The position numbers and the translations under genes were made by a program. The notes beneath the pieces are model-generated. The model worked only from the letters and a program-made list of their open reading frames with translations. It made no database searches and was not told the origin of the DNA. A stretch of DNA of 32,231 bases from Bacteroidota bacterium (lineage in GTDB: Bacteria; Bacteroidota; Bacteroidia; Palsa-948), in NCBI GenBank assembly GCA_023251675.1, contig JAHEYJ010000022.1, positions 1-32,231 on the forward strand, in the 5' to 3' direction. Shown piece by piece: positions 5,527 to 13,325 of this stretch. Within the stretch, counting starts at the first letter, position 1; every line of letters begins with the position of its first letter.

Positions 5527-6789
5527 TTAAAGTAAAAAAGAAAAGATTTCGCTTCCCGGATCAACGTAACTAAAGGTAAAGCCGTTGGCTCCCATCCGTT
5601 CTTTCAACCCGGGCAGATCCTCTTTTTTCCCAAGTTCGATCCCGATCAGAACCGCGCCTTTTTCGCGGTTGGTTTTTTTCAGGTATTCAAAACGAGTGAT
5701 GTCGTTCCCATCACCGAGCACCTGATTCACAAATTCTTTTAACGCGCCGGCCCGTTGAGGAAAGTTAACGAGAAAATGATGTTTGAATCCTTCGAAGACC
5801 AGCGAGCGTTCTTTTATTTCCTCCATGCGGCCGATGTCGTTATTCCCGCCGGAAACAACACAGACTACATTTTTTCCTTTTATTTCCTCGCTGAAAAGAT
5901 CCAGCGCAGCAACTGAAAGCGCGCCGGCCGGCTCAGTAACGATGGCGCTGCGGTTATAAAGCTCCAGCAGGGAAGAGCAGATCTTTCCTTCGGGAACGAG
6001 AACAACAGCATCAAGAAAATTTTTACAAAGAGAAAATGTAAGGTCGCCCACCTGTTTTACTGCGGCGCCGTCTGCAAACCGATCGATCTCTGATAGTGAC
6101 AATACGCGCCCTGCCTCCAGCGATCTTTTCATTCCTGCAGCGCCTTCCGGTTCTACACCGACGAGCTTTGTTTTCGGGCTCAGTGTTTTGAAAACGTTTA
6201 CCATTCCGGCCGCAAGTCCGCCGCCGCCGATAGGAATAAAAAGATAATCGATGTGTGCTGCACTTTGTTCAAGCAACTCCAAAGCAAGCGTTCCTTGTCC
6301 GGCGATCACCTGCTCGTCATCAAAGGGATGAATGAACAAGCTGTTGTTCTCTTCGCAAAACCGTTTTGCTTTTTCACAGCAATCGTCAAAGGTGTCTCCC
6401 GTCAAACGCACAACGATAAAATCCTTTCCAAACCATCGTACCTGATCTGTTTTTTGTTTCGGCGTGGGAAGCGGCATAAAGACAGTTCCCTGTATTCCAA
6501 GCAGCGCACAGGAATAAGCAACACCCTGCGCATGGTTGCCGGCGCTGGCACATACGACCGATCTTTCTTTTGCAGCTTTTCCCAGTGAGAAAATTTTATT
6601 ATACGCCCCGCGGATCTTGAAAGAGCGTACCACCTGCAGGTCTTCCCGTTTCAAAAAAACAGAGGCATTGAACTTTTCACTCAAAAAATTATTTAGCTGC
6701 AGCGGCGTAAGTGAAGCTATATTTTTCAGATTGTTCTTTGCCGTTCGAATTTTTTCAAGCGACCCGTTTTGTGTTTCAGTTGTTCTCAT
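5527..6789 (-). CDS. ilvA: Threonine ammonia-lyase (threonine deaminase)
   Basis: Converts threonine to 2-oxobutanoate, the first committed step to isoleucine, using PLP. The 420-residue protein has the PLP lysine in SFKIRGAYNK (Lys58), the ASAGNHAQG motif near 81-89 and the phosphate-binding GGGGLAAG loop at 188-195. The C-terminal roughly 85 residues form one ACT-like regulatory domain (from about HHFLVNFPQRAGALKEF), the short architecture usual in Bacteroidota. I chose the ATG at 6789 because it falls one base after the ilvC stop codon; the frame stays open about 30 codons upstream, but that part overlaps ilvC and looks non-conserved. It is the last gene of the ilv operon. The single ACT domain suggests feedback control by isoleucine, which is inferred from the family. 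Confidence 0.95.
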   Translation of the reverse strand: MRTTETQNGSLEKIRTAKNNLKNIASLTPLQLNNFLSEKFNASVFLKREDLQVVRSFKIRGAYNKIFSLGKAAKERSVVCASAGNHAQGVAYSCALLGIQGTVFMPLPTPKQKTDQVRWFGKDFIVVRLTGDTFDDCCEKAKRFCEENNSLFIHPFDDEQVIAGQGTLALELLEQSAAHIDYLFIPIGGGGLAAGMVNVFKTLSPKTKLVGVEPEGAAGMKRSLEAGRVLSLSEIDRFADGAAVKQVGDLTFSLCKNFLDAVVLVPEGKICSSLLELYNRSAIVTEPAGALSVAALDLFSEEIKGKNVVCVVSGGNNDIGRMEEIKERSLVFEGFKHHFLVNFPQRAGALKEFVNQVLGDGNDITRFEYLKKTNREKGAVLIGIELGKKEDLPGLKERMGANGFTFSYVDPGSEIFSFLL

Positions 6790-6790
6790 T

Positions 6791-7840
6791 TTAATTTTTA
6801 TTTTCCGGGCGTAAGGACCGCACCTGTTTTCCTGCCTGCCAGAGTTCGCTGTCGCGGAGCTCTGCCAACTCTTTTTCAAGATTCTTTCTGTAATCGGGTT
6901 TTTTATTTGCTTCGATCACCACACGGGCCTCTTTTCCGGAAGAAACGCTGGCGTATAATTCTTCAAACAACGGAAGTGTTGTTTCGCGAAACCGGTGTCT
7001 CCAGTCCAGCGCACCGCGTTGCGCGGTAGTGGAAGTGTTCGCATACATCCAGTCCATTCCTTTTTCTGCAACAAGCGGCATCAGGCTTTGCGTGAGCTCT
7101 TCCACCGTTTCGTTAAATGCTTCGGAAGGGGAGTGCCCGTGTTTGCGCAACACTTTGTACTGCGCTTCAAAAAGTCCTGCGATAGCGCCCATCAGTACGC
7201 CCCGCTCTCCGGTGAGATCCGAAAAAACTTCTTTGCGGAAATCCGTTTCAAATAAATATCCCGACCCGATCCCCATCCCAACAGCCAATGCGCGCTCTTT
7301 TGCTCTTCCTGTGAAATCCTGGAACACCGCATAGCTGGAGTTCAGTCCCTTTCCCTGGAGAAATAACCGGCGGAGCGAAGTGCCCGATCCTTTTGGCGCG
7401 GCAAGGAACACATCTACCTTCTTGGGCGGAACGATGCCGGTCTGTTCGTGAAAAGTAACGCCGAAGCCGTGAGAAAAATAAAGCCCCTTGCCTTCGGTGA
7501 GATTATTTTTCAGTATAGGCCATAGTTGTATCTGTCCCGCATCAGATAAAAGGAACATAAGGATCGTTCCTCGCTTTGCGGCTTCTTCCGGTTCGAAAAG
7601 AGAAACGCCTTCTTGCCACCCGTCGCTTAGCGCCTTTTGCCAGGAAGCAGAATGTTTCCGTTGCCCGACGATCACATTGAACCCGTTATCGCGCAGGTTC
7701 ATTGCCTGTCCCGGGCCCTGAACGCCATAGCCGATCACCGCCATGGTTTCATTCTTCAGGACTTGTTTTGCTTTTTCAAGAGGAAACTCTTCGCGGGTCA
7801 CTACATCTTCCATGACTCCGCCAAAATTTAATTGTGCCAT
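6791..7840 (-). CDS. ilvC: Ketol-acid reductoisomerase
   Basis: Isomerises and reduces acetolactate or acetohydroxybutyrate to the dihydroxy acids of the valine and isoleucine routes. The dinucleotide-binding motif GYGVQGPGQ lies at 37-45 and is followed by the cofactor-specificity loop GQRKHSASWQ (about 59-68), whose Arg, Lys and Ser residues favour NADPH. The sequence around NLRDNGFNVIVGQRK resembles the yeast Ilv5/Bacteroidota branch rather than the Escherichia long form, and the 349-residue length agrees. The metal-binding acidic residues are expected in the FETDFRKEVFSDLTGERGVLMG region and are present. The gene sits 1 bp before ilvA and 146 bp after ilvN, with a strong hairpin in that gap. 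Confidence 0.96.
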   Translation of the reverse strand: MAQLNFGGVMEDVVTREEFPLEKAKQVLKNETMAVIGYGVQGPGQAMNLRDNGFNVIVGQRKHSASWQKALSDGWQEGVSLFEPEEAAKRGTILMFLLSDAGQIQLWPILKNNLTEGKGLYFSHGFGVTFHEQTGIVPPKKVDVFLAAPKGSGTSLRRLFLQGKGLNSSYAVFQDFTGRAKERALAVGMGIGSGYLFETDFRKEVFSDLTGERGVLMGAIAGLFEAQYKVLRKHGHSPSEAFNETVEELTQSLMPLVAEKGMDWMYANTSTTAQRGALDWRHRFRETTLPLFEELYASVSSGKEARVVIEANKKPDYRKNLEKELAELRDSELWQAGKQVRSLRPENKN

Positions 7841-7899
7841 ACTGTATTTGGTTTTAAGATTTGAATTTTAGAAAGAGACCTGCTGATTTACTAATCTTT

Positions 7900-7951
7900 A
7901 CTAATGTACTAATGCGTCAGTCGAGAAGAAGTCCCGTATTAGTACATTAGT
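7900..7951. repeat. Long hairpin between ilvN and ilvC
   Basis: Two 17-base arms (7900-7916 and 7935-7951) pair at 16 of 17 positions, the remaining one being a G-T wobble, around an 18-base loop. The pairing continues imperfectly outward to about 7889 and 7962. The arms are built from the iterated word TACTAAT(G). There is no T-run directly after it on the minus strand, so it is not a typical terminator. It could stabilise the upstream mRNA or lower expression of ilvC and ilvA relative to the earlier genes. By architecture it belongs with the other iterated-word hairpins in the window. Confidence 0.8.
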
Positions 7952-7986
7952 AGTGATTCGTAGTTTAGTAGATAACTTTTTTGTTT

Positions 7987-8511
7987 TTAGTTATTATATA
8001 ATTCCATTTCATTTAAATAATCCTGAAGAGGTTTCATCGGTTTTGACATAGCCACTCTTCCGGAACGGGCGAATTCAAGCACTCCGAAATTTTTCAGTTC
8101 GCGCAGCAGGCTGAGCAGATCTTCTTCGTGTCCCGTTTTTTCAACGATGGCAAAAGAAGATTCCAGCGCGACCACCGAAGCGTTGTGTTTCCGCAGAACA
8201 AGTTCAAGCTGCCCGCTGAGGGTTTTCAGGGGAACTTTGTACAATGCGATCTCTCTGAAAACCGTTTCACAGCCGGAATGGGCAAACGCCTTGAACACCT
8301 CCACCTGCTTTTCCATCTGCCGCGCGATCTTGTTGGCTAAATTTTCATCGCAGCAGACAACGATAGTGTAGCGGAAGATTCCTTCTACTTCGCATTCGGA
8401 ACACGTGATGCTTTCAATGTTCACATGCCTGCGCGAGAGAAGGGTGGTCAGCCGCATGAGCATGCCGATGCGGTGTTCGGAAAAAACGGAGAGGGTGTAT
8501 TGATTTTGCAT
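7987..8511 (-). CDS. ilvN: Acetolactate synthase, small regulatory subunit
   Basis: Regulatory subunit of acetohydroxyacid synthase, partner of the large subunit encoded 14 bp upstream. The 174-residue protein starts with an ACT domain (YTLSVFSEHRIGMLMRLTTLLSRR, about 5-28, then VNIESITCSECE), which in the family binds valine and gives feedback inhibition. A second domain of about 90 residues follows (from about LYKVPLKTLSGQL). The usual ilvN start segment, in which the ACT domain begins right after the initiator methionine, supports this start codon. It lies inside the ilv operon and is followed by the hairpin at 7900-7951. Confidence 0.93.
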   Translation of the reverse strand: MQNQYTLSVFSEHRIGMLMRLTTLLSRRHVNIESITCSECEVEGIFRYTIVVCCDENLANKIARQMEKQVEVFKAFAHSGCETVFREIALYKVPLKTLSGQLELVLRKHNASVVALESSFAIVEKTGHEEDLLSLLRELKNFGVLEFARSGRVAMSKPMKPLQDYLNEMELYNN

Positions 8512-8525
8512 TTGTTTTATTTATT

Positions 8526-10241
8526 TTAGCATAATCGCACTTCATCAACCGCCGCTCCGGCAGGAATCATGGGAAAAACATTTTCTTCTTTTTCCACAAC
8601 GACTTCCAGCAAGTATGCGGACGGGCTGCTCATCATTTCCTGCATGGCGCCTTTCAGTTCTTTTCTTTCAGTTACTTTTTTCGATGCGATACCGAATCCT
8701 TTTGCCAGTGTTTGAAAATCCGGATTCTGCATTTCTGTATGGGAATACCGTTTGTCAAAAAACAATTCCTGCCACTGGCGAACCATGCCCAGAAAATTAT
8801 TGTTGAGCAGAAGGATCTTAACATTTGTCTTTTCCTGTGCGATGGTGGCGAGTTCCTGTATCGTCATCTGAAAACCCCCATCGCCGATCACCGCAACCAC
8901 GTCTCTTTCAGGAGCGCCCATTTTTGCACCGAGCGCTGCAGGCAAAGCAAAGCCCATCGTGCCGAGTCCGCCGGATGTGATCTGGGATCGGCAGGTCTCG
9001 AATTTAAAATAACGCGAAGCGATCATCTGGTGTTGTCCGACATCGGTTACCAGTATCGTGTCAGGGCTTTTCGTTTCATTCAGCAGACGGAGCGCTTCGC
9101 CCATCGATAAAGCAGAATTCTCCGGAAAGAATTCTTTCTCTATCACGGCTTCATATTCCACGCTGCGGAGTTTTTTGAACTCGTCCACCCAGGCCGAATG
9201 ATCGTTTGAATTTGCGGCAAGACGTAATAAGTGAAGCGTTTCTTTGCAATCTCCCGGCAAAGGCAGATCACACTTCACTACTTTATTTATTTCGGAAGCG
9301 TCGACATCAAGGTGAATTATTTTTGCCTGTTTCGCATACCGGTTCACGTCACTGGTTACACGGTCGTCGAACCGCATGCCTACGGCGATCAGAACGTCGC
9401 AGTAATTCGTCAGCAGGTTGGGCGCATAATTTCCGTGCATGCCGAGCATTCCCGCATGTTGCGGATGATCGGTAGGCAAAGCAGAAAGGCCGAGCAGTGT
9501 TCCCGCTGCCGGCATTCCTGTTTTTTCAAGAAAAGATTTTAATTCTTTTTCCGCTCCACCCAAAACAACACCCTGCCCGAATAAAAGAAACGGGCGCTTT
9601 GCTTTGTTGATCAGCGTTGCCGCTTGCCGAACTTTTTCCATGTCCACTTTCGGATAAGGAACGTACGAACGAAGCCCCTTGCATTTTTCATAGCGGAATT
9701 CTGCTTTTCCGAATTGTGCGTCTTTGGTGATATCGATGAGCACCGGCCCCGGCCTTCCCGTTCGTGCTATATAAAAAGCTTTTGCCAGCGCAGCGGGTAT
9801 GTCTTCTGCGCGAACGGCCTGCGTGTTCCACTTGGTGACCGTGGTCGATAAGCCGATCATGTCCGTTTCCTGGAACGCGTCGCTGCCCAGAAGATGTGAG
9901 TGAACTTGTCCGGTGATACAAACTACCGGCGTGCTGTCGGCCATTGCATCGGCAAGCCCGGTTATGAGATTGGTTGCGCCGGGCCCGGAGGTTGCGATGC
10001 AGACACCGACCTTTCCTGTAGCGCGCGCATAACCTTGTGCCGCATGTATGGCGCCTTGTTCGTGGCGAACCAAAACATGACGAAGTTGTTTTTCATATCC
10101 GTAAAGCGCATCATACACCGGCATGATGGCGCCGCCGGGATAACCGAAAAGCAGGTTCACGTTTTCTTCGAGCAAACATTTTACAACAGCCTCGGCGCCT
10201 GTCAGGGTTTTTGTTTTTTCTTTTATCGTAGTTGTTTCCAT
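8526..10241 (-). CDS. ilvB: Acetolactate synthase, large catalytic subunit
   Basis: Thiamine-diphosphate enzyme that condenses pyruvate with pyruvate or 2-oxobutanoate, at the branch point to valine and isoleucine. In the 571-residue protein the catalytic glutamate is in VRHEQGA (Glu61), and the ThDP/magnesium motif starts with GDGG at 453-456 and ends with NNN at 480-482. The GYPGGAIMPVYDAL start of the pyrimidine-binding domain is at about 33-46, and the central domain contains the FAD-type segment around FGQGVVLGG. It starts 2 bp after the ilvD stop and is followed by ilvN, so the two subunits are made from one message. Confidence 0.96.
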   Translation of the reverse strand: METTTIKEKTKTLTGAEAVVKCLLEENVNLLFGYPGGAIMPVYDALYGYEKQLRHVLVRHEQGAIHAAQGYARATGKVGVCIATSGPGATNLITGLADAMADSTPVVCITGQVHSHLLGSDAFQETDMIGLSTTVTKWNTQAVRAEDIPAALAKAFYIARTGRPGPVLIDITKDAQFGKAEFRYEKCKGLRSYVPYPKVDMEKVRQAATLINKAKRPFLLFGQGVVLGGAEKELKSFLEKTGMPAAGTLLGLSALPTDHPQHAGMLGMHGNYAPNLLTNYCDVLIAVGMRFDDRVTSDVNRYAKQAKIIHLDVDASEINKVVKCDLPLPGDCKETLHLLRLAANSNDHSAWVDEFKKLRSVEYEAVIEKEFFPENSALSMGEALRLLNETKSPDTILVTDVGQHQMIASRYFKFETCRSQITSGGLGTMGFALPAALGAKMGAPERDVVAVIGDGGFQMTIQELATIAQEKTNVKILLLNNNFLGMVRQWQELFFDKRYSHTEMQNPDFQTLAKGFGIASKKVTERKELKGAMQEMMSSPSAYLLEVVVEKEENVFPMIPAGAAVDEVRLC

Positions 10242-10243
10242 AG

Positions 10244-11914
10244 TTAATTTGAATCAGTTACACATCCTTCCGAAGCCGACGATACCAGTTTTGCGTACTT
10301 ATACAGGTATCCCGACTTCACTTTCAGTTCCGGTTTTTTCCAGCCACGTTTGCGATTTTTTATTTCGTCAAAGAACAAATGCGCATGAATGGAGTTTTTA
10401 TTTATATCGATCGTGATCTTATCTCCGTCGCGGAGCAATGCGATCATTCCCCCGTCAAACGCTTCAGGAGAGATATGCCCGACCACAAATCCATGTGACC
10501 CGCCGGAAAATCGTCCGTCGGTTATCAGCGCCACGTCGCTGCCGAGCCCGGCACCCATGAGCAGGGAAGTGGGCTTCAGCATTTCGGGCATTCCCGGACC
10601 TCCTTTCGGCCCTGCGTAACGGATCACCACCACGTCGCCCTTTTTTATTTTGTTTCCGAGGATGGCTTCGTTCACCTCTTTTTCGCCGTCAAAAACTTTT
10701 GCTGTTCCGGAAAACAATTCGCCTTCTTTGCCGGATATTTTTGCAACGGCCCCGTCGGGTGCCAGGTTTCCAAAAAGTATTTTCAAGTGGCCGGTTTCCT
10801 TTACGGGAGTTTCCGCGGGAAGAAAAACAGATTGTTTCTTTTTCAAAGAAGGAACACTTACAAGGTTTTCTTCCAGTGTTTTTCCCGTGACGGTCAAACA
10901 ATCTCCGTGGAGAAGTTTTCTTTCTAAAAGATATTTCATCACCGCCGGAGTTCCGCCCGCTTCGTGAAGGTCCTCCATCAGGAATTTTCCGCTCGGTTTC
11001 AAATCACCCAGAACCGGGGTGCGCCGGCTTATTCTTTCAAAATCATGCAGCGAAAGTTTTACGCCGGCGGTTTTTGCAACCGCAAGCAGATGAAGAACCA
11101 GGTTGGTGGAACCTCCCAGCGCCACCGCAGCGGTTATTGCATTCTCAAAAGACCTTTTTGTAAATAATTTTTCAGGAAGCAAATTGTTCTTCAGCAGCGT
11201 CGTCATTTTTCTTCCGGCTTCTTCGCACTCTTTTTTCTTGGCACCGCTCACGGCTGGAGTGGAAGAAGATCGGGGGAGGGTAAGTCCCATGGCTTCCATC
11301 GTTACGGCCATGGTGTTTGCGGTGTACATTCCTCCGCAGGCGCCGGGGCCGGGACAAGCTTTCTTCACTACATTTTTAAATTCCTGTTCAGATATTTTTC
11401 CGGAAAGTTTTTCCCCCAGCGATTCAAACGCGCTGACCACATCCAGCTTTTTTCCGTTGTGGCATCCCGACGCGATCGTACCGCCGTAGACCAGTATGGC
11501 AGGTCGATTCAACCGCGCCATCGCCATCATGGCTCCCGGCATATTTTTGTCGCAACCGACAACGGCAATAAAACTGTCGTAATGCTGTGCGCTCACCACC
11601 GATTCGATGCTGTCGGCGATGATCTCGCGCGAGGGAAGTGAATACCGCATTCCTTCCGTTCCCATGGAGATGCCATCGCTCACACCGATGGTGTTGAAGA
11701 TAAGTCCCATGGTGCCGGACTTTTTGCATCCGTTCTTTACGAAGGTGGCCAGTTCGTTCAGGTGCATGTTGCAGGGATTTCCTTCGTAGCCCGTGCTTAC
11801 GATACCGATCTGAGGTTTTAAAAAATCTTCTTCCTTAAAACCGGTTGCGTGAAGCATGGCTCTTGCTGCCGGCAGTGTTGGATCTTGCGTGATATGTTTA
11901 CTATAATGATTCAT
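10244..11914 (-). CDS. ilvD: Dihydroxy-acid dehydratase
   Basis: Iron-sulfur dehydratase that makes the 2-oxo acid precursors of valine and isoleucine. The 556-residue protein has the family signatures GCDKNMPG (Cys121; Lys123 is the probable carbamylated lysine) and [16 protein letters not shown] (Cys187, Cys193), with Cys48 in GNPCNMH; three cysteines are the expected ligands of a [2Fe-2S] cluster. The C-terminal signature [23 protein letters not shown] is present. It is the second structural gene of the operon. The gap to ilvE is 53 bp and holds a small palindromic repeat; the gap to ilvB is 2 bp. Confidence 0.96.
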
Positions 11915-11967: not shown

Positions 11968-12858
11968 TTATTTTATCCGTTCTGATCTATATTTTTTTTC
12001 ACGGACAAGTTCCGAATATGCTTGCTGGAGTTTTGCTCCCAGCGTTTTGCTCCACGGTTTTTGAAACGACACATCGTTCACCGATTCGATGCCGATCACT
12101 TCAGCAGCGGTTCCGCAGAAGAAAGCTCCGTCCATGCTTAATAATTCAGAAGGCTGTAAATGCCGGACCTCGTAAGGCAGGTTGAGTTCGTCGCATAATT
12201 CAAGAACGGTAGCGCGTGTGATTCCGGGCAGTATATTTCCGAGCGGAGGGGTGAAAAGTTTTCCATTCTTTTCGCAGAAAAAATTTGCTCCGGGGCCTTC
12301 GGCTATGTTTCCGTACATGTCGAGCAGCAATCCTTCATCGAATCCTTTTTCTTTTGCTTCAACGGTAGCAAGGATGGAATTCACGTAGTGGCCGCATGCC
12401 TTCGCCTCCACTTTTACCGATCTTGGATTCGGGCGCTGGTAAGAAGAGAGGCAAAGGCGCAGAAGTTTATCTCCGAGATAATTTCCCCATTTCCACGCGC
12501 AGATCATGAAATTTACTTTCGTTGGCTTGTTCAGGCTCATGTTCGGATCACAGTAAACGAGCGGGCGCAGGTAGGCATCCTGGAGATCATTTCTTTTCAA
12601 CACCTCGTATGACAACTCTTCCATTTCTTTTACAGAATACCCAAAAGGTATATGGATGAGATCGCAAGAGCGTTTTAATCGTTCGTAATGTTCTTTTGCC
12701 TTGAAGATCTTTGCTTTTCCGGATGCTTCATACGAGCGGATTCCCTCGAAGGCCCCGTAGCCGTAATGCAGGGTTTGTCCGTACAGATCAGTCGTTACTT
12801 CGGATGCTTTCAGAAATTTTCCGTTGTTGAAGAGAACCGTGTTTTTGTCGTAGTACAT
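11968..12858 (-). CDS. ilvE: Branched-chain amino acid aminotransferase
   Basis: PLP-dependent class IV aminotransferase that makes valine, isoleucine and leucine from their 2-oxo acids. In the 296-residue protein the PLP lysine is in VEAKACGHYVNS (Lys153) and the class signature EGPGANFF is at 187-194. The HYGYGAFEGIRSY segment near 31-43 and LPGITRATVLEL are typical of the bacterial IlvE branch. It is the first structural gene of the ilv operon, just downstream of two attenuators, so its expression depends on reading through both. I see no separate promoter between the second terminator and its ATG. Confidence 0.95.
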   Translation of the reverse strand: MYYDKNTVLFNNGKFLKASEVTTDLYGQTLHYGYGAFEGIRSYEASGKAKIFKAKEHYERLKRSCDLIHIPFGYSVKEMEELSYEVLKRNDLQDAYLRPLVYCDPNMSLNKPTKVNFMICAWKWGNYLGDKLLRLCLSSYQRPNPRSVKVEAKACGHYVNSILATVEAKEKGFDEGLLLDMYGNIAEGPGANFFCEKNGKLFTPPLGNILPGITRATVLELCDELNLPYEVRHLQPSELLSMDGAFFCGTAAEVIGIESVNDVSFQKPWSKTLGAKLQQAYSELVREKKYRSERIK

Positions 12859-12922: not shown

Positions 12923-12950
12923 CCTCCCCCTGCCCCCTCCAGAGGGGGAC
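12923..12950. repeat. GC-rich palindrome after the second ilv attenuator
   Basis: On the minus strand a CCCCCTC-TG-GAGGGGG stem is followed by CAGGGGGAGG. It begins about 7 bases after the T-run of the second leader terminator. A related copy occupies the same position after the first terminator (13129-13168). Confidence 0.75.
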
Positions 12951-12957
12951 ATGAAAC

Positions 12958-12993
12958 AAAAAAGCCCTTCCACGTTTGGTGAGAAGAGCTTTT
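12958..12993 (-). terminator. ilv leader terminator 2 (attenuator)
   Basis: On the minus strand the arms AAAAGCTCTTC (12983-12993) and GAAGGGCTTTT (12960-12970) pair over 11 positions with one U-G wobble, followed by six T. The 5' arm can instead pair with the antiterminator strand that overlaps the stop codon of leader peptide 2. Confidence 0.85.
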
Positions 12994-13019
12994 GTAATTT
13001 TTGACAAAGCAATCTCACC
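12978..13019 (-). promoter_or_regulatory. ilv leader antiterminator 2
   Basis: GGTGAGA (13013-13019, overlapping the leader-2 stop codon) is an exact complement of TCTCACC (12978-12984). The stem continues after a small internal loop as GCTTTGT against ACAAAAGC with one bulged base. This pairing uses most of the terminator 5' arm, so the two structures exclude each other, as in classical attenuation. It would form when a ribosome stalls at the Ile/Val codons and leaves the stop region free. Confidence 0.75.
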
Positions 13020-13077
13020 CGGGTGGTTTCACCACGATGATGCTGATAATAATGATCGTTAGTTTTTTCATTTTCAT
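13015..13077 (-). CDS. ilv leader peptide 2
   Basis: Twenty codons: MKMKKLTIIIISIIVVKPPG, with six Ile, two Val and one Leu, ending at TGA. Such a run of the end products of the downstream pathway is the hallmark of a ribosome-stalling leader peptide. The coding stretch is immediately followed by, and overlaps, the antiterminator 5' strand, then the terminator. It is preceded by an A-rich stretch instead of a Shine-Dalgarno. It lies about 160 bp after the first leader peptide, on the same strand as the ilv genes. Confidence 0.85.
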   Translation of the reverse strand: MKMKKLTIIIISIIVVKPPG

Positions 13078-13128
13078 TTTTTCTTCACCGCCTGTTTATT
13101 CATAGCCAGAAACATGTTTTTACAGCCA

Positions 13129-13168
13129 AATCCCCCTGCCCTGCGGGCATCCCCCTTTGCAAGGGGGA
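13129..13168. repeat. GC-rich palindrome after the first ilv attenuator
   Basis: On the minus strand CCCCCTT-GC-AAAGGGGG is followed by a second small stem TGCCC-GCA-GGGCA and then GGGGGATT. It lies just after the first leader terminator. Together with 12923-12950 it makes the pattern leader, terminator, palindrome occur twice. Confidence 0.75.
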
Positions 13169-13173
13169 GAAAC

Positions 13174-13207
13174 AAAAAAGCCCCTCTCGCATTTGCGGGA
13201 AGAGCTT
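13174..13207 (-). terminator. ilv leader terminator 1 (attenuator)
   Basis: On the minus strand a 13-base arm starting AAGCTCTTCCCGC (13195-13207) pairs with GCGAGAGGGGCTT (13178-13190) across a 4-base loop, with two wobbles and one mismatch, followed by six T at 13174-13179. Terminators 1 and 2 share the ending GCTTTTTTGTTTC. Confidence 0.85.
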
Positions 13208-13236
13208 CAATATGTTTTTACACAAATCTTTCCCGC
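13195..13236 (-). promoter_or_regulatory. ilv leader antiterminator 1
   Basis: GCGGGAA (13230-13236, starting at the last base of the leader-1 TAG) is an exact complement of TTCCCGC (13195-13201) in the terminator 5' arm, with partial pairing continuing inward. The geometry is the same as in attenuator 2: the antiterminator 5' strand abuts the stop codon, so a ribosome that reaches the stop would cover it. Confidence 0.75.
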
Positions 13237-13289
13237 TACGCTTTGCCAGGCGTAATAATAATGACGAGAGCGATTGTGTTGTTTTTCAT
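13236..13289 (-). CDS. ilv leader peptide 1
   Basis: Seventeen codons, MKNNTIALVIIITPGKA, then TAG. It has four Ile, one Leu, one Val and two Thr, with three Ile codons in a row, so it would report the charging of tRNAs of the pathway it precedes. A promoter-like TACATTTG box lies only 7 bases upstream of the ATG, so the transcript would have almost no 5' untranslated region. It differs in sequence from leader 2 but has the same layout. Confidence 0.82.
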   Translation of the reverse strand: MKNNTIALVIIITPGKA

Positions 13290-13296
13290 TGCGCGG

Positions 13297-13325
13297 CAAA
13301 TGTATAATCTTTTTTGTCAAACCAA
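13297..13325 (-). promoter_or_regulatory. Predicted promoter of the ilv operon
   Basis: TACATTTG (13297-13304) matches the Bacteroidota -7 consensus TAnnTTTG exactly, and TTG at 13323-13325 is 18 bp upstream, fitting the -33 element. The predicted start point is near 13291-13293, a few bases before the leader-1 ATG. Confidence 0.6.

Follow-up and report, generated by a model that had tools for sequence, protein, structure and literature searches.

Why would one biosynthetic operon be preceded by two complete attenuators? Leader-peptide attenuation of ilv genes is textbook biology in enterobacteria, in which ilvGMEDA and ilvBN are controlled in this way. For a 32,231-nucleotide stretch of DNA from a Bacteroidota bacterium (the window), an earlier reading made from the letters alone had proposed that two such units stand in series in front of the ilv operon. 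To follow up this proposal, we read the minus strand from 13325 to 12858 directly for leader parts and compared the region with other ilvE upstream regions. Our analysis indicates that the operon is very probably preceded by two ribosome-mediated transcription attenuators in series, on one transcript that would start just before leader ORF 1.

The operon lies on the minus strand in the order ilvE-D-B-N-C-A. Its first gene, ilvE (11968..12858), scores above the cut-off of TIGR01122 for branched-chain aminotransferase. The genes after it span 5527..11914 and comprise ilvD (10244-11914), ilvB (8526-10241), ilvN (7987-8511), ilvC (6791-7840) and ilvA (5527-6879), each an NCBIfam equivalog. The divergent neighbour on the opposite strand is a DsbD-like gene. 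In the other branched-chain amino acid operon of this genome, leuA-leuC on contig C94, the upstream region is short and contains no attenuator. A motif scan identified a candidate sigma-A-type Bacteroidota promoter at 13297..13325 on the minus strand, 5′ of leader ORF 1, with the form TTG-N18-TACATTTG (TTG at 13325-13323 and TACATTTG at 13304-13297). The TAnnTTTG box, the -7 element of Bacteroidota, ends 7 bases 5′ of ATG1, and the TTG lies 18 bases ahead of the box. Because we placed this box at -12 to -5, the position described from mapping in Flavobacterium psychrophilum (PMC9723704), the predicted transcription start falls near 13292, about 3 nt 5′ of ATG1, and leader ORF 1 would therefore be nearly leaderless. 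The box-to-ATG distance in the window is shorter than in most box-carrying relatives, in which it is 17-20 bases or more. With the start predicted in the 13289-13304 region, translation of leader peptide 1 may take place on an mRNA that has almost no 5′ leader.

Both units proved to be complete, with ORFs, antiterminators and terminators all on the minus strand at the positions first proposed. In unit 1, leader ORF 1 (13236..13289; MKNNTIALVIIITPGKA, stop TAG) is followed by the antiterminator strand GCGGGAA (13230..13236), which begins on the G that forms the last base of the stop codon. All seven bases of this strand are complementary to TTCCCGC (13201-13195) in the 5′ arm of terminator hairpin 1 (13178..13207), whose T-run occupies 13179-13174. 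In unit 2, the stop codon of leader ORF 2 (13015..13077; MKMKKLTIIIISIIVVKPPG, stop TGA) is spanned by the strand GGTGAGA (13013..13019), the exact complement of TCTCACC (12984-12978) in the 5′ arm of terminator hairpin 2 (12960..12993; T-run 12963-12958), and this pairing forms when the free fragment is folded. The sequence-only reading had the T-runs ending at 13174 and 12958 and had described, for both units, a seven-base strand at or over the leader stop that exactly complements the terminator arm; our reading agrees on each point. Both terminators consist of a stem followed by T6. They were found by RNA folding and by a dedicated scan, and neither was listed by a simple consensus terminator scan. 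Leader ORF 1 contains four Ile codons, one Val and one Leu, and leader ORF 2 contains six Ile, two Val and one Leu.

The two peptides are unrelated, as had been stated. We add that the terminator halves are 71% alike, a resemblance that is not clearly above the between-genome background. The earlier account described the units correctly and left out the promoter, the nearly leaderless ORF 1 and REP-like palindromes that lie directly 3′ of both terminator T-runs. One palindrome lies between the units (13131..13168, minus strand; CCCCCTTGCAAAGGGGG...CAGGGGGA) and has related copies elsewhere in the genome. The other follows unit 2 (12925..12948, minus strand; CCCCCTCTGGAGGGGGCAGGGGGA) and has seven genome copies with at most three mismatches, with none for the reversed control. 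Elsewhere in the window, three genes for secreted proteins share a stretch, FFPLLWGGTEGGAF, that is encoded by a near-identical palindromic element (CCCTCTCCTTTGGGGAGGGACCGAGGG; 28935, 26893 and 25762, minus strand) placed in frame within their signal-peptide regions.

We estimated how often such units arise by chance from shuffled sequences and control regions. To count as a unit, a site had to combine an ORF containing a run of three or more Ile, Val or Leu codons, a terminator no more than 60 nt from the stop codon, and pairing between the stop region and the terminator arm above a score threshold. None of 4,000 dinucleotide shuffles of the 520-nt leader contained even one unit, and a scan of both strands of the 32 kb returned only the two units of the window. 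None of six congeners of the window genome had ilvD or a close ilvE; the operon was therefore either lost in them or gained here. Because these nearest relatives are without the operon, the comparison draws on more distant Bacteroidota, with IlvE orthologues taken from 45 matches in 395 class-level genomes and from 80 loci in named genomes. We found at least one unit within 550 nt in 85 of the 114 Bacteroidota ilvE upstream regions, versus 1 of 114 coding stretches and none of 106 regions further upstream. Absence of the short ORFs and stems from relatives would have spoken against the original proposal; units are instead common in these more distant genomes, ORFs and stems are conserved in an alignment of close carriers, and strand and arm covary.

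Most ilvE loci (73/114) carry one unit only. Two or three units are found at 20 loci, from approximately 18 distinct genomes, and a stricter scan over 550 nt finds at least two in 12 loci. The expectation that two in series would be unusual was therefore only partly right, as roughly 18 of about 111 distinct ilvE loci carry two or three. Tandem carriers include Pontibacter indicus, Flavobacterium sp. NRK F7 and SUN046, Myroides sp. 1354 and Amniculibacterium aquaticum, and three units in series are found in the Flavobacteriaceae Aequorivita vitellina, Bizionia sp. and Oceanihabitans sediminis. Loci at which the detector reported a doubtful extra ORF (L007, L037, L056, L057 and parts of L075) were not scored as tandem on that ground. 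Weaker cases, with low strand-arm pairing by the detector, are unit 1 of Pontibacter L066, the first units of L035 and L122, and the second unit of L086. Some redundancy is present, as L075 and L078 are near-copies and the pairs L128/L045, L079/L033 and L094/L034 each come from the same genome. In 17 of the 20 tandem loci ilvD follows ilvE, and in alignments of close tandem carriers conservation is centred on both ORFs and both stems while the spacers differ.

Two further features of these loci were seen in the survey. The single ilvE leader peptides of Chitinophaga and [Flexibacter] sp. (L081, L082, L084, L087, L088, L096, L099, L103, L106 and L117) share a strongly conserved N terminus, MWVNKDN...LNWAIT, that lies well apart from the control codons; its conservation hints at an additional function of this part of the ORF or of its RNA. 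Although their genomes are assigned to different families, L075 (Pedobacter sp. Hv1) and L078 (Amniculibacterium aquaticum) have almost the same IlvE and leader, as could result from recent transfer, from mislabelling or from contamination.

The relatives also allowed us to examine whether the strand at the stop codon is matched to its own terminator. Across 95 non-redundant units, the stop-region strand paired with its own terminator arm with a mean score of 16.2, versus 12.2 ± 0.28 when arms were swapped among units, and none of 300 permutations exceeded 12.99. Pairing peaked at the stop codon and was confined to its surroundings. For unit 2 of the window by itself, stop-region pairing was equalled or exceeded by 15% of foreign arms, and the mechanism is better settled by the relatives than by the window on its own. 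In Escherichia coli, a ribosome protects 12 nt past the first base of the A-site codon, and we assumed this downstream footprint in testing the geometry. The strand begins shortly beyond a ribosome positioned on the last Ile, Val or Leu codon of the run, with a median gap of 1 nt from its front (quartiles -1 to 3); once the ribosome stands at the stop codon, it hides the whole strand in 69 of 70 units.

When leaders were folded at the stage that precedes synthesis of the 3′ arm, upstream RNA captured a mean of 7.65 bases of the 5′ arm with a stalled ribosome and 0.95 with the ribosome at the stop codon, a contrast that is partly built in since a ribosome at the stop blocks the same region that was searched for the strand. 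At least four arm bases were captured in 87 of 95 units in the stalled state versus 3 of 95 at the stop, and the corresponding captured bases for the two window units were 10.2 versus 0.5 and 7.9 versus 0.02. At equilibrium the full terminator was favoured in all states (mean P of 0.86 stalled and 0.92 at the stop), and therefore the switch has to be kinetic. Kinetic switching is also how classical attenuation operates. A ribosome-free, untranslated intermediate likewise captured the arm, so a leader without a ribosome might read through. The anti-antiterminator (1:2) pairing, which in E. coli trp enforces termination of an untranslated leader, appeared in full-length folds of both leaders but was not favoured in ribosome-free intermediates. 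Taken together, the masking geometry and the covariation of strand and arm are consistent with the original claim that a ribosome at the stop would lead to termination and a stalled ribosome to read-through.

We propose that the two units act as gates in series. When charged tRNA is low, a ribosome would wait at the Ile and Val codons and leave the strand at the leader stop codon free; the free strand would then capture the 5′ arm of the terminator, and polymerase would read on. A ribosome that reaches the stop codon would cover the strand and allow the terminator to form. Polymerase would have to pass both units to reach ilvE and, because both gates lie before this gene, their read-through probabilities should multiply. 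Compared with a single unit, the expected result is a steeper response, with deeper repression at high Ile and Val. This model builds on the anatomy of the units, the position of the strand relative to the ribosome, the covariation of strand and arm, the conservation of the units and the single promoter motif; these, with the identity of the genes, all fit an ilv operon under two serial ribosome-mediated units. Its assumptions are that no other promoter drives the operon, that termination occurs in vivo at both hairpins and that the effects of the gates are multiplicative. The sequence-only reading had left a steeper and a broader response side by side. A steeper response is more likely, because Ile codons predominate in both units, with fewer for Val and one for Leu in each.

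The leader would be one RNA with two leader ORFs ahead of one operon, given one promoter motif and no box between the units. Were a second promoter to lie between them, unit 2 would be an independent leader; the approximately 100 nt from terminator 1 to ATG2 leave room for one, and our scan is blind to promoters of sigma factors other than sigma-A. However, no TAnnTTTG box was found between the units (13180 to 13078), even with one mismatch allowed. Across all loci a box lies within 80 nt of 43 of 99 first units versus 3 of 24 later units (Fisher p = 0.005), and a hand count of the other tandem loci found one within 40 nt of 13 of 18 first units and of none of 20 later units. Since the boxes stand mainly before first units, a single transcript probably runs through both gates in turn, and we consider two separate transcripts distinctly improbable. 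A single transcript could still carry two gates that sense different signals, for example Ile and Val at one and Ile alone at the other, or leaderless and ordinary initiation, and so form an AND gate like that of Salmonella mgtCBR. The triples point in this direction, with Ile, Val and Leu codons in unit 1 and only Ile in units 2 and 3, as do the mean Val counts of 2.2 in first units versus 1.3 in later ones and, in the window, a nearly leaderless unit 1 (predicted 5′ UTR of 3 nt) ahead of an internal unit 2. Yet codon content overlaps in most other pairs and both window units are mainly Ile with some Val (4/1/1 and 6/2/1 Ile/Val/Leu); this likeness favours gates for the same signal, and we regard the two-signal arrangement as possible but doubtful.

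The same comparison bears on the nature of the sensor and on the need for both units. A T-box, riboswitch or protein-binding attenuator can also place a terminator/antiterminator pair before an ilv operon. No Rfam family matched the ilv leaders at gathering score in the window or in the loci of 15 relatives, where only a tRNA was returned, and no T-box matched in the window at gathering score or at E ≤ 1. Among Rfam leaders (Thr_leader, Leu_leader, His_leader, Trp_leader and Bacteroid-trp) none scored above gathering, and only Thr_leader appeared, with 18.4 bits against the 55 needed (E 0.62). Across 95 units, moreover, the strand that pairs keeps its place at the stop codon of an ORF with Ile/Val codons, and a sensor other than leader translation is hardly credible here. 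It is conceivable that one unit alone regulates and that the other, although it looks intact, is left over from a duplication or from an earlier leader. A single unit suffices at most ilvE loci, and parsimony on the IlvE tree requires about seven switches into or out of the tandem state, a sign that units are gained and lost; at least six of the seven changes are forced by well-supported branches. Against a relic, every part of both window units is intact, both ORFs and stems are kept in tandem lineages while spacers differ, and 16 of 19 tandem rows fall in one 21-row clade (support 94/84) that includes the window, which suggests long retention. We therefore think it unlikely that either unit is idle, and return to two working gates as the preferred reading. 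The tree fits either an old tandem that was lost in places or repeated origin. Units 2 and 3 of the Aequorivita, Bizionia and Oceanihabitans triples arose by local duplication and are 79-93% alike, whereas in the other tandems, including the window pair, units are not clearly more alike than units from different genomes. When we tested derivation of unit 2 from unit 1 by duplication, the terminator-side identity of 0.71 was equalled by 11% of unrelated pairs.

By its in silico features, each unit appears to be a classical ribosome-mediated attenuator: both have a leader ORF rich in branched-chain amino acid codons, a predicted terminator before the first structural gene, an antiterminator that uses the 5′ arm of the terminator, and a strand that in our models is masked at the stop and free at the control codons. 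They share with E. coli trp, his, ilvGMEDA and ilvBN and with Corynebacterium ilvBNC a leader ORF rich in regulating codons, mutually exclusive antiterminator and terminator, masking by a ribosome at the stop codon, and a position ahead of genes of the same pathway (PMC11857589, PMC10272879). Unlike these attenuators, there are two or three complete units per operon and ORF 1 is nearly leaderless; in contrast to the E. coli cases, 1:2 pairing is found in full-length folds and is not favoured in intermediates. Serial T-boxes are found at Bacillus subtilis thrZ. Tandem riboswitches of Bacillus clausii metE are mentioned in a study of Salmonella mgtCBR (PMC3641672). As in thrZ and in metE as mentioned there, terminators stand in series before one gene and their effects are expected to combine, but in those systems the RNA senses a metabolite or uncharged tRNA directly, whereas the sensor here would be translation of a leader ORF. 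The one close precedent that our literature search turned up is the mgtCBR leader itself, in which tandem ORFs respond one to ATP and one to proline, a ‘singular example’ according to its authors (PMC3641672). It resembles the ilv leader in that a single leader with a pair of short ORFs serves one operon; the signals there differ, whereas the ilv units draw on codons for the same amino acids, and every unit ends in an intrinsic terminator of its own. In the open-access literature that we searched, we found no description of serial leader-peptide units for the same signal. Such a series, each unit itself of classical type, appears to be the new element.

In the same phylum, the Bacteroid-trp motif is read as an attenuator. 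This motif (RF01692; PMC2864571) and the amino-acid operons of F. psychrophilum, for which strong clues for leader-peptide attenuation have been reported (PMC9723704), resemble the ilv leaders in that the mechanism is likewise inferred from structure, but differ, as described in those sources, in that the units here are serial. We found leader-peptide attenuation in Bacteroidota only as a prediction in the open literature searched. With natural leaders of one, two and three units before the same gene, whether the effects of serial attenuators multiply could be tested directly.

Ribosome-mediated attenuation needs close coupling of transcription and translation, and Bacteroidota make little use of Shine-Dalgarno initiation. 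Because of this need for coupling, the leaders are ready-made coupling probes in such a phylum. More broadly, the number of serial same-signal attenuators (one, two or three) may be an evolvable setting in Bacteroidota for how deeply the ilv operon is repressed and for the gain of its response, with units that arose partly by local duplication and were kept by selection, an idea for which we find the present evidence evenly balanced.
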